Shown: positions 55,745 through 64,000, numbered from the stretch's first letter. The stretch: 64,000 nt of DNA from an uncultured Bacteroidota bacterium (GCA_903847205.1 CAINDA010000035.1:310001-374000); one strand, 5' to 3'. Numbers and translations: made by a program. The notes: generated by a model not told the origin, from the letters alone.

Positions 55745-56527
55745 TTACTCCTCTCCAATCTGTTCATTTCTTTTTTTTGTTTCCTTCTGATTTATTACAT
55801 GGTCGGCATATAATTTATTTTCAGAGATCAGGTAATAGTTTGGATTGTATCCTTTAGGTTCAATCCGCCTGCCGTTGTATTTTCCGGAGCTTGCCCAGGT
55901 AACATCAATATACTCCCACTGTCCGTTTATAGAAACTTTATTCCAGGCATGGTTCAGCGGAATTTTGTTTTTGTTTTTATATTTTTTAATCTTATCGGTA
56001 TCATTAACTGCGAGGCCTTTTACTATTTCACATTGGATACCGCTGTAATTGCAAAGTTCATAAAATAATGCCGAATAGCCGTCGCAGATACCCATTCTGC
56101 TGCGAAGCACCTTAGATGCATAATTAAAATAGACATCAGCCCATTTGCCGGCTGGAGAATAGCTGCTGCCTGATTCGATACTGCTGTTCGGATTGTTTTT
56201 TTCTTTTTCGTTATAAACAATATTCTGTGTCATCCATATAAATATGGCTCTCACTTTTTCTCCGTCGGTATAAAACGGGCGGGTAATATCTTTAGAAAGT
56301 TCAGGAATGTTTTTATATTTTTTTTTCAAACCCGAAACATAATTATCAACTGCTGAAAAACCATTACCTTCAGCAGTATCAGATAAATGCCAGGGAACTT
56401 TTTCGCCGGCTATTTCTTTTGCCGGGCTGCTTGAATCAGCACTGATAAAAATTTGGCTGTCGATATTCTGCGCATTGATGACAGCTGTTATGCACATTAC
56501 AATGATTGTGGAAAGGAGCGTTTTCAT
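55745..56527 (-). CDS. Exported transglutaminase-like protein
   Basis: This 260-residue protein has a signal peptide (about 1-19, ending INAQ). The transglutaminase-core catalytic triad is present: C148 in MGICDGYSALF, H193 in LNHAWNKVSI and D208 in WEYIDVTW. Bacterial members of this family are cysteine proteases or cross-linking enzymes of the periplasm, often acting on peptides or cell-wall material. The pattern VRAIFIWMTQNIVYNE (about 92-107) is typical of the domain start. It is divergent from nothing nearby and stands alone; the substrate is unknown. Confidence 0.87.
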   Translation of the reverse strand: MKTLLSTIIVMCITAVINAQNIDSQIFISADSSSPAKEIAGEKVPWHLSDTAEGNGFSAVDNYVSGLKKKYKNIPELSKDITRPFYTDGEKVRAIFIWMTQNIVYNEKEKNNPNSSIESGSSYSPAGKWADVYFNYASKVLRSRMGICDGYSALFYELCNYSGIQCEIVKGLAVNDTDKIKKYKNKNKIPLNHAWNKVSINGQWEYIDVTWASSGKYNGRRIEPKGYNPNYYLISENKLYADHVINQKETKKRNEQIGEE

Positions 56528-56745: not shown

Positions 56746-57372
56746 TTATTCCTTATATACAATTGAAACTGCATAACCCTCAGGCGATGAAGAATCAATG
56801 AAAATATATTTTTGATTATTTATTTTTATCGACTCTCCGCTTACATCTAAATTCCGGAAAGGGATCATAACACCGAGGCCGGAAGCTTTAACGAGGGCCT
56901 CCTTTCTTGTCCAAAGCTGATAAAATTTCAACAAAGCGTTGAAATTATTTTCTATTCTCGCCAATTCGTTTGGAGTAAAATATTCAGAATAATCTTCGAG
57001 ATTAATTTCTTTTATGATTTCTGCGTCAAGACCTATCTGCTTTTTTACTGAGCCTGCACAGAATACCATATTGCCGGTATGTGACGTACTAAAATCAAAT
57101 TCTGTTTCGAAATAAGGCCTGTTATTATCAGTAAATTTAAGCTGTTCGAGAGAAATTATGTTAGAACAATTGAAGTCCTTTAATAATTGCTGCAACTGCA
57201 GTTTTGCTTCTACTCTTAATTGGCGGTCGAGCCAGCCGTCATAGGCAGTTATTCTTTTCTGAATAAAATCCGGGAGGGAATTCAATTGATCAAAAAAAGT
57301 TTTTTCACCCCATTGATGAATAATCTCTGAGCTGTAAACTTTAATAGCATTTGTGTCAACTATTTTTTTCAT
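56746..57372 (-). CDS. 4'-phosphopantetheinyl transferase (Sfp/AcpS superfamily)
   Basis: This 208-residue, two-domain Sfp-type protein has the conserved motifs FSTSHTGNMV (about 94-103), QIGLDAEII (Mg-binding D116 and E118) and FYQLWTRKEALVKASGLG (about 150-167, second acidic ligand and Lys). It transfers 4'-phosphopantetheine from CoA to a carrier-domain serine. Its start lies 298 bases from, and divergent to, the NRPS-like gene with a carrier domain. It is thus the likely activator of that protein, although it may also serve fatty-acid acyl carrier protein. Confidence 0.9.
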   Translation of the reverse strand: MKKIVDTNAIKVYSSEIIHQWGEKTFFDQLNSLPDFIQKRITAYDGWLDRQLRVEAKLQLQQLLKDFNCSNIISLEQLKFTDNNRPYFETEFDFSTSHTGNMVFCAGSVKKQIGLDAEIIKEINLEDYSEYFTPNELARIENNFNALLKFYQLWTRKEALVKASGLGVMIPFRNLDVSGESIKINNQKYIFIDSSSPEGYAVSIVYKE

Positions 57373-57670: not shown

Positions 57671-60600
57671 ATGTTACAGAAAAGCATTTTAAAGGGTCTG
57701 GAGAAAACTGATTTATTGAAAGACGAAACGCTTGCGGACATTTTTTACGCTTCAGCACAAAAGTTTCCGGATAAAACTGCACTCATATTCTGCGAACAAC
57801 AGCTTACCTATCGTGAATTAGATAATTGGAGCAATGCTTTGGCAAATCAGCTTCGCAGCCTGGGTATCGGGCAGGGAAAATCTGTAGGAGTTTGGTATCC
57901 CAGGAGTTTAGAACTGCATGCTGCAATTTTAGGCATTGTTAAAGCCGGGGCTGCTTATATACCTATTGACAGTGAAATGCCTGAAGAAAGAGTGAAAACA
58001 ATTCTTGAAGAAGCCGGAGCTTCAGCCTGCTTTTCAAAGAATAAGCTGCATTCAGAATGCCATGTTTTGGATGTAACAGCTTTCGATAAAAAAGAAACAG
58101 TACGCCCTGACTTTAAAGGTTCACCTAACGACCGCGCTTATGTATTATATACTTCCGGCAGTACCGGAAAGCCTAAAGGAATACCCATCAGCCAAAAACA
58201 GATTTGTCATTTGGTACGTTCCGAACAGTGTATTATAGGTATAAAGGAAACTGATAAAGTGTATCAGGGTTTTTCAGTTTCATTTGATATGTGGTGCGAA
58301 GAAACCTGGATCAGCTACCTGGCAGGTGCAACGCTGTTTGTGGCTGATAACGCCACTGCCAAGGCAATTGATGAACTATCGGATGTACTTCGTAAAAATA
58401 ATATAACAGTGCTTCATGCAGTGCCCAGCCTGCTTGCGGTGATGGAAGAAGATATTCCATCGCTGCGTTTGATAAATGCCGGCGGAGAAGCCTGCACACC
58501 TCAGGTTCTGGCAAAATGGGCGCTTGACGGCCGAACGTTTTATAACAGCTACGGCCCGACAGAAACAACTGTTACATCATCCATGATCTCTTTAAAAAAG
58601 GGAGATAAAATTACTATCGGAACACCGCTGCCCAATTATAATTATGCAATTGTTGATGCTGATTTACATATACAGCCTTGCGGAGAGCCGGGTGAATTGA
58701 TAATTACCGGCCCCGGTGTTGGGGCTGGATACATCAATCTTCCGGAATTGACTGCTTCTAAATTTGTAAGCAAACCCGCTGCGCTGGATGAACTTCCAGG
58801 GGATATGCTTTACCGCACCGGCGATACTGCAATTATTCAAACGGATGGAACTGTTGATTTTCAGGGCCGTTTCGATGATCAGATTAAGTTAAGAGGATTC
58901 AGGATTGAACTGGGAGAAATTGAAAACAAGCTTGCAGAACAGAAGAACGTTTTAGCTGCTGCAACTGTTGTTAAAAAAGATGCCGATGACCAGGAGCAGT
59001 TAGTAGGCTATGTTTTGATAAAAGATAAAAAAGATTTTGATGAGCATGAGCTGAGAGCTGAATTAACAAAGGTGCTTGCGCCTTATATGGTTCCCGGTAT
59101 TATTATCAGGCTTGATGAAATGCCGCGGCTGCCAAGCGGTAAAATTAACCGAAAGGCTTTACCGCTGCCTGCTTCGTTTGAAAAAAAGAACAACGAAATA
59201 CCGCATCAAAAAATTAATCAGGATGCTTCGGTCGGAGAAAAAATTGTAAAGATACTGGAGCAGATCTTCCCCAATAAAAAGGTGGATCTTACTATGGATT
59301 TTTTTACTGACCTCGGCGGACATTCGCTTTTAGCAGCCGGATTTGTTTCCCGACTCAGAAAAGAAGGAGGAGTAAAAAACGCTTCGCTTAAAGATATTTA
59401 CCTGCACCGCCCTTTGAGTGAACTTGCTCCTGTGTGGGAAGCTGGCGAAAAAGTAAAAAAATCAGAATCACTGCCATTTAATCGTATTCCGTTATACCGT
59501 TATTTCTTCTGCTGGACAGGCCAGAGCATAGCCCTGCTCCTGATTTTAGGATTATTTGCAGCACAGGTATTTTTTCCATACCTGGGATATTATTATGTGC
59601 AGGGCCAGACAGGCAGCCATGCTTATGCGATTATAGCCTCTATTTGTTTATTCTGTTTTGTCCCGCCGTTCTTAACGTTACTGAGTATAGTATCAAAATG
59701 GCTGATAATCGGTAAAATGAAAGAAGGAGATTATCCCTTATGGGGAACTTATTATTTCAGATGGTGGTTTGTGAATGCGATGCAGCGCCTTATACCTGTT
59801 TCATTTTTAAACGGCACACCGCTTTATAATTTTTATCTGCGGATGAATGGCGTAAAAGTGGCTAAAGACGCACAGCTCAGCGCTTTTACAATAGGCGCCG
59901 AAGATCTGGTAACTATAGGAAGCGATGTAAGCATCAGCTCAAAAGTGGTGCTGAATAATGCTTTTGTTGAAAAAGGAATGCTGAAGCTGCGTAAAATCAC
60001 TATCGGCAATCATGCCTATATCGGCGGAAGTGCTGTGCTTGCAGGCGGTTCTGTTATTGAAGACTGGGGCGAATTAAAAGATTTAAGTTATCTGCAGGCA
60101 GGCAAAACCATTAAAACACGCGAGGTTTGGCAAGGCAGCCCTGCTAAATGCATTGAAGTTAAAACCGAAGCCGAACTTCCTCAGCCGCTTGAAGTAAGTG
60201 ATGCTGTGCGCTTCAGATATAAAACAGCCTACAGCATACTGCTTCTATTATTTCCTTTTGCAATATTAATACCGCTGCTGCCTGTTATTTATGCACTCAG
60301 CGAATTGGATAATGCCGCTGATGATTATGATTTCAGATACCTGATGTTTACCCCGATTTTAGCACTTGCCTATACTTTATTGTTTGCCCTGCAGACAGTT
60401 ATTATAACCAACTGGCTTCAAAAGGGCATTAAACCCGGTACTTACCCGGTGCATAGTACATTTTATGTGCGCAAATGGCTGGCCGACCAGTTTATGGAAT
60501 TATCATTAATGGTAATGCATCCCGTTTATGCAACAGTATATATAGCAGGCTATTTCAGGGCACTGGGCGCAAAAGTGGGCAAGGAAACCGAAATATCGAC

Positions 60601-61609
60601 AGCCAACAATGTAACTCATCCCCTGCTCGAAATAGGCGAAGGCGCTTTTGTTGCCGATGCTGTTACGCTGGGCGAAGCTGATGTTAGGGCGCAGCGCCTG
60701 ATACTGGATGTTACCAAAATCGGAAATAAAAGTTTTATCGGCAACAGCGCATTAATTCCCCAAGGCTACAATCTGCCTTCTGATATGCTTATAGGAGTAC
60801 TTTCTACTCCGCCATCGCCAGAGCAGTTAGAAAAAAATCAGGCGCATGATTGGTTTGGTTCACCGGCTATTGCCATGCCCAAGAGGCAGGAGAGCGAGAG
60901 CTTTGATGCTTCACTTACTTTTAAACCCTCCAAAAAAATATATTTTGCACGTGCCGTGGTTGAATTAATCAGGATACTAATCCCTGAAACGGTAATGCTT
61001 TGCACCAGTTTATTATTTATTGTTTTTGTACATGATATATTAGTGGGCGAACCCTGGTGGCAATTTGCACTTCTTTTCCCCCTGTATTATCTTTTCTTTA
61101 TGGGCATCCCCTGCTTCCTGGTAGTTGTACTGCTGAAATGGGTGCTGATAGGGGTTTACAAGCCGATGCAAAAGCCCATGTGGTCGCTGCATGTATGGCT
61201 GAGTGAAGCCATTACTGCTATATATGAAGCATTGGCGGTTCCGTTTTTGCTTGAATATCTTAAAGGCACACCCTGGCTGCCGGTAATACTGCGTCTGCTG
61301 GGTGTTAAAACAGGCAAACGGGTTTGGTTATATACTACTGATATTACAGAATATGATATGGTAAGTATAGGCGACGATGCCGAAATAAACGAAGACGCCG
61401 GCCCTCAGACCCACTTATTTGAAGACAGGGTGATGAAAGTGGGCACTGTAAAAATTGGCGCACGCAGCGTAGTGGGCTCCCATTCTATTATTTTATATGA
61501 TTCTGAAATAGGAGATGATGTTTCGCTCGAAGCACTGTCGTTAATAATGAAGGGTGAAAAACTTCAGGCTGGAACTAACTATGGAGGAAGCCCGGTTAGA
61601 AATACTTAG
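57671..61609 (+). CDS. NRPS-like adenylation-carrier protein with membrane/left-handed beta-helix terminal domain
   Basis: This 1312-residue protein has a full adenylation domain (about 20-500): core motifs YTSGSTGKPKG (about 158), NSYGPTET (about 292), YRTGD (about 380), GRFDDQIKLRGFRIELGE and PSGKINRKALP with the A10 lysine. A carrier domain with DLGGHSLLA follows (about 547-555). There is no condensation or thioesterase domain. From about 610 to 1312 it has membrane helices in pairs alternating with three hexapeptide-repeat, left-handed beta-helix segments (IGNHAYIGGSAVLAGGSVIE, IGNKSFIGNSALIPQGY, IGARSVVGSHSIILYDSEIG). This is the Pls-type terminal region of epsilon-poly-lysine-like synthetases, which chains an amino acid without condensation domains. 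Substrate and product are inferred only. A Sfp-type transferase gene is its divergent neighbour. Confidence 0.88.
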   Translation: MLQKSILKGLEKTDLLKDETLADIFYASAQKFPDKTALIFCEQQLTYRELDNWSNALANQLRSLGIGQGKSVGVWYPRSLELHAAILGIVKAGAAYIPIDSEMPEERVKTILEEAGASACFSKNKLHSECHVLDVTAFDKKETVRPDFKGSPNDRAYVLYTSGSTGKPKGIPISQKQICHLVRSEQCIIGIKETDKVYQGFSVSFDMWCEETWISYLAGATLFVADNATAKAIDELSDVLRKNNITVLHAVPSLLAVMEEDIPSLRLINAGGEACTPQVLAKWALDGRTFYNSYGPTETTVTSSMISLKKGDKITIGTPLPNYNYAIVDADLHIQPCGEPGELIITGPGVGAGYINLPELTASKFVSKPAALDELPGDMLYRTGDTAIIQTDGTVDFQGRFDDQIKLRGFRIELGEIENKLAEQKNVLAAATVVKKDADDQEQLVGYVLIKDKKDFDEHELRAELTKVLAPYMVPGIIIRLDEMPRLPSGKINRKALPLPASFEKKNNEIPHQKINQDASVGEKIVKILEQIFPNKKVDLTMDFFTDLGGHSLLAAGFVSRLRKEGGVKNASLKDIYLHRPLSELAPVWEAGEKVKKSESLPFNRIPLYRYFFCWTGQSIALLLILGLFAAQVFFPYLGYYYVQGQTGSHAYAIIASICLFCFVPPFLTLLSIVSKWLIIGKMKEGDYPLWGTYYFRWWFVNAMQRLIPVSFLNGTPLYNFYLRMNGVKVAKDAQLSAFTIGAEDLVTIGSDVSISSKVVLNNAFVEKGMLKLRKITIGNHAYIGGSAVLAGGSVIEDWGELKDLSYLQAGKTIKTREVWQGSPAKCIEVKTEAELPQPLEVSDAVRFRYKTAYSILLLLFPFAILIPLLPVIYALSELDNAADDYDFRYLMFTPILALAYTLLFALQTVIITNWLQKGIKPGTYPVHSTFYVRKWLADQFMELSLMVMHPVYATVYIAGYFRALGAKVGKETEISTANNVTHPLLEIGEGAFVADAVTLGEADVRAQRLILDVTKIGNKSFIGNSALIPQGYNLPSDMLIGVLSTPPSPEQLEKNQAHDWFGSPAIAMPKRQESESFDASLTFKPSKKIYFARAVVELIRILIPETVMLCTSLLFIVFVHDILVGEPWWQFALLFPLYYLFFMGIPCFLVVVLLKWVLIGVYKPMQKPMWSLHVWLSEAITAIYEALAVPFLLEYLKGTPWLPVILRLLGVKTGKRVWLYTTDITEYDMVSIGDDAEINEDAGPQTHLFEDRVMKVGTVKIGARSVVGSHSIILYDSEIGDDVSLEALSLIMKGEKLQAGTNYGGSPVRNT

Positions 61610-61736: not shown

Positions 61737-61887
61737 CCCACCCTAAGGGCGAACCATCCACATTTTGAAATTTAACCTGTTTGTAGTATAATAAATAAAA
61801 CAGCCCCCCTCTAAGAAACCTCCATCTCTTAATAAGAAACCACGATAAACTTTTTTAACCCTCACACAGTTTATTGAACATACCCAA

Positions 61888-62307
61888 CCTTGATGTTCTA
61901 TGAGTAAACCTTGATCTTCTATTAGCAAACCTTGATCTTCTCAGAGTAAACCTCGATGTTCTATGAGTAAACCTCAATGTTCTCTAATTAAACCTTGATC
62001 TTCTCTGAGTAAACCTCGATGTTCTATGAGTAAACCTTGATGTTCTACGAGTAAACCTCGATGTTCTCTGAGTAAATCTCGATGTTCTCTGAGTAAACCT
62101 CGATGTTCTCTGAGTAAACCTTGATCTTCTATGAGTAAACCTCGATGTTCTATGAGTAAACCTTGATCTTCTATGAGTAAACCTTGATCTATTATGAGTA
62201 AACCTTGATGTTCTCTGAGTAAACCTCGATGTTCTATGAGTAAACCTTGATGTTCTATGAGTAAACCTCGATGGTCTATGAGTAAACCTTGATGTTCTAT
62301 TAAATTT
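61888..62307. repeat. 20-unit, 21-bp tandem repeat array
   Basis: Twenty consecutive 21-base units without indels (the last one decayed), consensus CCTTGATGTTCTATGAGTAAA. Variation is nearly confined to three positions, each with two states: T or C at position 4, G or C at position 8, A or C at position 13, in many combinations. Read on the minus strand the unit is the heptapeptide (I/R)E(H/D)(Q/R)GLL, and all three variable sites change the residue. A TGA interrupts that frame in the unit at 61972-61992, and there is no start codon, so I do not call a gene. It lies between the NRPS-like gene and the terminator of the S74 gene. Confidence 0.95.

Positions 62308-62405: not shown

Positions 62406-64000
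<1,595 letters not shown>

Follow-up and report, generated by a model that had tools for sequence, protein, structure and literature searches.

A probable delta-poly-L-ornithine synthetase of the Pls/PosA family in an uncultured Bacteroidota bacterium

A gene of an uncultured Bacteroidota bacterium was found to encode a protein that, judged from its sequence, is a member of the Pls/PosA family and is probably a cationic homo-polyamino-acid synthetase, with delta-poly-L-ornithine as its most likely product. The gene lies in a stretch of 64,000 nucleotides (GCA_903847205.1, CAINDA010000035.1:310001-374000), referred to here as the window. Isopeptide polycations are antimicrobial and are in industrial use. 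Most of the producers characterised so far are, to our knowledge, actinomycetes, alongside a fungus and a single Acinetobacter enzyme. With PosA, in 2023, an enzyme that makes such a polymer became known from a Gram-negative bacterium (PMC10522769). The family is already known, and it is widespread yet uncharacterised in Bacteroidota; a literature search found no biochemical report or paper on Bacteroidota members.

Domain organisation and nearest characterised enzymes

The synthetase gene and its domains were located at the following positions of the window.

57671..61609, + strand: Pls/PosA-family synthetase gene; 1312 aa, ATG start; adenylation (A) domain, carrier (T) domain, then a membrane pair and beta-helix three times over
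57728..59170, + strand: adenylation domain, residues ~20-500; Pfam PF00501/PF13193; PDB match to PosA 8G95
59213..59440, + strand: carrier domain; PF00550; phosphopantetheine Ser552 in LGGHSLL
59471..61606, + strand: putative terminal polymerisation domain, residues 601-1312; TIGR02353; AlphaFold2 model
59471..60175, + strand: repeat 1, transmembrane (TM) pair and left-handed beta-helix
60176..60895, + strand: repeat 2, TM pair and left-handed beta-helix
60896..61606, + strand: repeat 3, TM pair and left-handed beta-helix, with the QTHxxxDRxM motif

Pfam matches were obtained to AMP-binding (residues 26-354), AMP-binding_C (416-491), PP-binding (526-569) and Hexapep, and the NCBIfam model TIGR02353, 'Pls/PosA family', matched residues 618-1309 with 672.3 bits (cut-off 423.1). 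Six hydrophobic segments were present in three pairs (620-638/653-671, 855-873/894-912 and 1102-1120/1142-1160). Together with the AlphaFold2 model, these results bore out the Pls-type plan of adenylation, carrier and membrane/beta-helix segments proposed in the initial annotation, which had also seen no condensation or thioesterase domain; by Pfam, neither family was matched in the protein. No condensation domain was found in the whole source genome, so the synthetase cannot borrow one. The carrier serine, Ser552, was kept in all 91 full-length sequences compared.

The best named match was Acinetobacter baumannii PosA, a delta-poly-L-ornithine synthetase (PDB 8G95-8G98; PMC10522769), with 40% identity over 99% coverage and 46% identity between the A domains. 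The two proteins have in common the domain order, the D-M-E-H code residues and six TM helices in three pairs. Each also has a hydroxyl residue at both positions near the delta-amine, but with Ser and Thr swapped (S/T here, T/S in PosA); code position 301 is Ala in the synthetase and Leu in PosA, and a phosphopantetheinyl transferase (PPTase) gene adjoins the synthetase gene but is not beside posA. PosA gave the best single-domain match to the A domain in the PDB, with 365 bits (A core), against ~265 for each LgrA domain and 264 for Pls (7WEW). Streptomyces Pls, the epsilon-poly-L-lysine synthetase from which the 7WEW A domain comes, agrees with the synthetase in architecture, family model and QTH motif, but differs in its code, D-A-E-S, shows ~30% identity in the one Streptomyces Pls compared and forms a distant branch in both trees described below. 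The PldA-type gamma-poly-L-diaminobutyrate synthetase (pldA-dat-ask operon) is likewise of the same architecture; its code is D-F-E-C and its monomer-supply genes are adjacent, whereas the synthetase is without adjacent monomer-supply genes.

Adenylation pocket and predicted substrate

The pocket code was read from a motif-anchored alignment, with the positions mapped off known motifs at what we take to be the GrsA spacing, as D206 M207 E210 H249 I268 A270 S293 V301 T302 K491. These are the letters that the initial annotation had read by eye, D-M-E-H-I-A-S-V-T-K. Positions 5 and 6 are placed one residue later in the PosA paper (PMC10522769), a minor shift since that study found those residues not touching the substrate. 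The residues of greatest interest are encoded as follows.

58286..58300, + strand: D206, M207 and E210, the predicted alpha-amine Asp, chain-length Met and side-chain-amine Glu (functions by PosA homology)
58547..58576, + strand: S293 and T302, pocket hydroxyls matching PosA T304 and S313 (alignment; PMC10522769)

In PosA, Met218 sets the limit on chain length, and the delta-amine is held by Glu221 with support from Thr304 and Ser313, which contact it; D217, M218 and E221 are the counterparts of D206, M207 and E210 (PMC10522769). The counterpart of this Met is Ala in lysine enzymes and Phe in Dap/Dab enzymes (PMC10522769); code position 2 of the synthetase is M207, as in PosA, and neither Ala nor Phe is present. 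Over 34 pocket residues, 24 were identical to PosA and 15-17 to the lysine, Dab and D-L-E-D types.

The full code of the synthetase, DMEHIASVTK, was closest in its first letters to those of A. baumannii PosA (DMEHILTVSK) and a Sphingomonas enzyme (DMEHIMTVTK). The other codes were DLED... in Azospirillum/Rhizobium enzymes, DAESLVTVVK in Streptomyces Pls and Mycobacterium, DFECLLAVTK in the Streptomyces Dab type and DFEYLVTVTK in Rhodococcus and S. cattleyicolor. One Bacteroidota genome (G449, locus L047) had the lysine-type code DAESLFTVIK. The D-L-E-D code was seen in alphaproteobacterial enzymes (L030, L032 and L040); that its substrate is not assigned was pointed out before (PMC10522769). 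The DFEC enzyme (L034) was followed by dat and ask genes (diaminobutyrate transaminase, aspartate kinase), a layout which is that of the published gamma-poly-L-Dab operon (PMC8117764) and provides an internal check, by context, on the reading of the code. The DAES Streptomyces enzyme was annotated as Pls, with a metallopeptidase gene next after it.

Positions 1 (Asp) and 3 (Glu) of the pocket did not vary among the 91 full-length sequences. DMEH occurred in 79 of them and another code in 12, of which only L055 (DMES) fell in the Bacteroidota clade of the synthetase. A chance origin of the code was excluded, because DMEHIASVTK, or a code with one or two conservative changes, was found in nearly all Bacteroidota relatives.

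Read from its code, the substrate is very probably cationic and is likely to be ornithine, with L-ornithine as the best prediction, although A domains of similar code can differ in substrate. The initial annotation therefore stood in part: a cationic diamino-acid code was upheld, and its comparison with lysine codes gave way to ornithine, which is favoured by the Met at position 2, a PosA feature, and by the 24 shared pocket residues. With Met at position 2 and His at position 4, lysine was set aside as the leading candidate.

Terminal domain

Profile comparison showed the membrane/beta-helix units to be genuine internal repeats (R1-R2, E 7e-32; R1-R3, 3e-36; R2-R3, 1e-19), and the control comparison of the units with the A domain gave a probability of <1%. 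In the AlphaFold2 model, built on 27 Bacteroidota sequences (pLDDT 88, pTM 0.88), two paired helices, some shorter ones and a helical region rich in beta-strand recurred three times; PosA is described with a similar threefold layout (PMC10522769). In the PDB, the terminal-domain profiles matched hexapeptide acyltransferases and gamma carbonic anhydrases, and a solved structure of the terminal domain itself did not turn up in the sequence-profile search. The top matches in structure comparison were galactoside/maltose O-acetyltransferases (Z 8.4, rmsd 3.0, 147 residues). The best of these fell on unit 1, so it is the fold, and not the function, that is shown. That the three units resemble acetyltransferases had been pointed out earlier (PMC8117764). 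The hexapeptide acyltransferases LacA and Maa have the beta-helix fold in common with the units of the synthetase, in which, by difference, three units are fused and accompanied by TM pairs; its acyl donor is presumed to be the aminoacyl thioester of the carrier, whereas LacA/Maa use acetyl-CoA.

61406..61414, + strand: Q1246-T1247-H1248, candidate catalytic motif; invariant in 91/91, with the His aligned to LacA H115 in four of five sequence sets

Within unit 3, Q1246, T1247, H1248, D1252, R1253 and M1255 were invariant across the 91 sequences, which include Orn-, Lys- and Dab-type codes, and so were E1227, E1179 and R1094. Units 1 and 2 had no His at the place matching H1248. When unit-3 profiles were aligned to Escherichia coli LacA, the His fell on H115, the catalytic base of that enzyme, in four of five sequence sets (full set, Proteobacteria, Dab-type and lysine-type); in the fifth, the Bacteroidota subset, it was aligned to H119 and not H115. 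Since the invariant Gln-Thr-His aligns in most sets with the LacA-type catalytic His, the third beta-helix may be the polymerising site. By analogy we infer that the attacking amine could lose its proton to H1248, and that the carrier's aminoacyl-pantetheine would stand where LacA has acetyl-CoA. A prior mutational study was reportedly carried out by Kito in 2013.

Phylogeny and distribution

A scan of named genomes revealed at least 569 stretches that encode a relative. The best 80 of the 569 were all from Bacteroidota (Chitinophaga, Mucilaginibacter, Pedobacter, Flavipsychrobacter, Taibaiella and many MAGs), with terminal domains 59-70% identical to that of the synthetase. The expectation that a cationic homopolymer would be unusual in Bacteroidota consequently failed at the gene level, and an exotic or single occurrence was rejected on the same grounds. 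Occurrence was nevertheless patchy: among 395 Bacteroidota genomes sampled, six were counted above the TIGR02353 cut-off, and within the genus of the window 2 of 36 genomes were, the source genome included, one of the two being a partial contig.

Quick trees with some long branches were built for the terminal and A domains, with the Pseudomonadota and Actinomycetota references taken from the plasmid collection only. In both, the Bacteroidota clade fell together with PosA, Sphingomonas and the proteobacterial enzymes of D-L-E-D code, while the lysine types of Streptomyces and Mycobacterium, like the Dab types, lay elsewhere; the DME label was not strictly a single clade. The terminal-domain phylogeny that the initial annotation had put forward as a check thus agreed with its proposal: both domains branched inside the polymer-making family, which gives no sign of grouping with non-polymer carnitine/tyramine-type proteins.

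The neighbouring phosphopantetheinyl transferase

56746..57372, - strand: NRPS-type 4'-phosphopantetheinyl transferase, divergent neighbour; PF01648
57373..57670, no strand: intergenic region of 298 bp shared by the divergent PPTase and synthetase genes

The neighbouring PPTase had its closest matches among NRPS-type enzymes, for example AusB (weak match, below cut-offs), and is presumed to be the activator of Ser552. In the source genome (completeness 100), two PPTases were found, a 128-residue AcpS-sized one and the neighbour of the synthetase, which is the only one of NRPS type. Two carriers were also found, a 92-residue ACP-sized frame and the synthetase, the only non-fatty-acid carrier. 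The NRPS-type PPTase is therefore without another evident client. Across the family, a PPTase gene was detected beside 24 loci (17 divergent, 5 downstream on the same strand, 2 convergent), three layouts which argue for selection for the pairing and not for inherited synteny. The linkage is not universal, as 57 loci flanked on either side by 1.5 kb or more lacked a PPTase by the home-made profile used, which may miss some diverged PPTases. No monomer-supply gene was recognised among the recurrent neighbours of Bacteroidota members.

Proposed mechanism and alternatives

Based on these data, the following route is proposed. The linkage suggests that the neighbouring PPTase would arm Ser552 of the carrier. 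The A domain would then activate a diamino acid, probably L-ornithine by homology to the PosA crystal structures. In the pocket, D206 would hold the alpha-amine and E210 the amine of the side chain, S293 and T302 would lend support, and M207 would limit the length. Once loaded onto the carrier, the amino acid would be passed to the membrane-bound terminal domain, where the side-chain amine would repeatedly be coupled to the next unit's carboxyl. Of the three hexapeptide-acyltransferase-like units, only the third has a catalytic-type His, H1248, to which this role is assigned provisionally. A short basic polymer would presumably be freed at or across the inner membrane. Polymer formation by full-length family enzymes has been shown for Pls and PosA.

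A synthetase of the same kind could use another monomer, namely L-lysine (giving epsilon-poly-lysine), Dab, D-ornithine or arginine. The Glu at code position 3 and the later V and K are common to all cationic members, and D-Orn is nearly as good a substrate of PosA as L-Orn, with Lys a weak one (PMC10522769). In the lysine type, however, positions 2 and 4 are Ala and Ser, and in the Dab/Dap type position 2 is Phe, where the synthetase has Met and His, and its pocket identity with Lys or Dab types (15-17/34) is well below that with PosA; another monomer is accordingly considered unlikely. It is more improbable still that a basic amino acid is activated and that a single residue or short oligomer is then attached to an acceptor in the membrane or envelope. 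The terminal domain does lie in the membrane with a hexapeptide O/N-acyltransferase fold, and many such acyltransferases acylate sugars, but the characterised Pls, PosA, Dab and Dap types yield free isopeptide polymers (PMC10522769, PMC8117764) and the catalytic-type motif is identical across Orn-, Lys- and Dab-type sequences.

The patchy occurrence in the genus (2/36 genomes) would also fit a degenerate or silent copy with no function. Against this, 1312 codons are open, the family-invariant residues are kept, the PPTase neighbour is intact and the code is conserved among relatives, so that there is very little chance of such a copy. A functional, probably delta-poly-L-ornithine-forming synthetase remains the preferred reading.

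Implications

The near-uniform ornithine code in the Bacteroidota clade offers many new enzymes to examine, and on its strength Chitinophaga, Mucilaginibacter and similar soil genera are predicted to be capable of poly-ornithine synthesis. Because one His, invariant throughout the family, falls in most sets on the catalytic His of LacA, a single point mutant could show which part of the terminal domain forms the amide bond. More tentatively, and with somewhat less than even confidence, delta-poly-ornithine may have a large and so far overlooked source in Bacteroidota, where the synthetase often has a dedicated PPTase and, for instance in Chitinophaga, a GNAT encoded in the same operon that perhaps acetylates the polymer; across the family, the third beta-helix would form the amide bonds, with the QTH His as general base and aminoacyl-pantetheine replacing acetyl-CoA in a LacA-type site.

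Other features of the locus and of related loci

In the window, a secreted-looking transglutaminase-core protein (55745..56527, - strand) adjoins the PPTase gene. Just 3' of the synthetase gene, an intergenic 21-bp tandem array was observed at 61886..62300 (~20 copies, unit AACCTTGATGTTCTATGAGTA, 87% matches), followed by a collagen-like GSTGSTGA-rich repeat protein (62406..63998, - strand) that runs past the window end and has an endosialidase-type chaperone (Peptidase_S74) at its C-terminus.

At related loci (L060, L064, L065, L066, L072, L074, L077, L082, L083, L088, L093, L098 and L046), the synthetase gene was followed immediately, on its own strand, by a GNAT acetyltransferase gene, often after 4 bp, and in Sphingomonas (L031) the order was synthetase-PPTase-GNAT. 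The GNAT gene, which is absent in the window, could possibly serve self-protection or tailoring through polymer acetylation. At 17 loci, mostly Mucilaginibacter (L063, L068, L070, L075, L079, L097 and L105 among them), a transglutaminase-like gene was present downstream on the opposite strand. A second recurrent neighbour at these loci had, by eye, the look of a proteasome-type peptidase.
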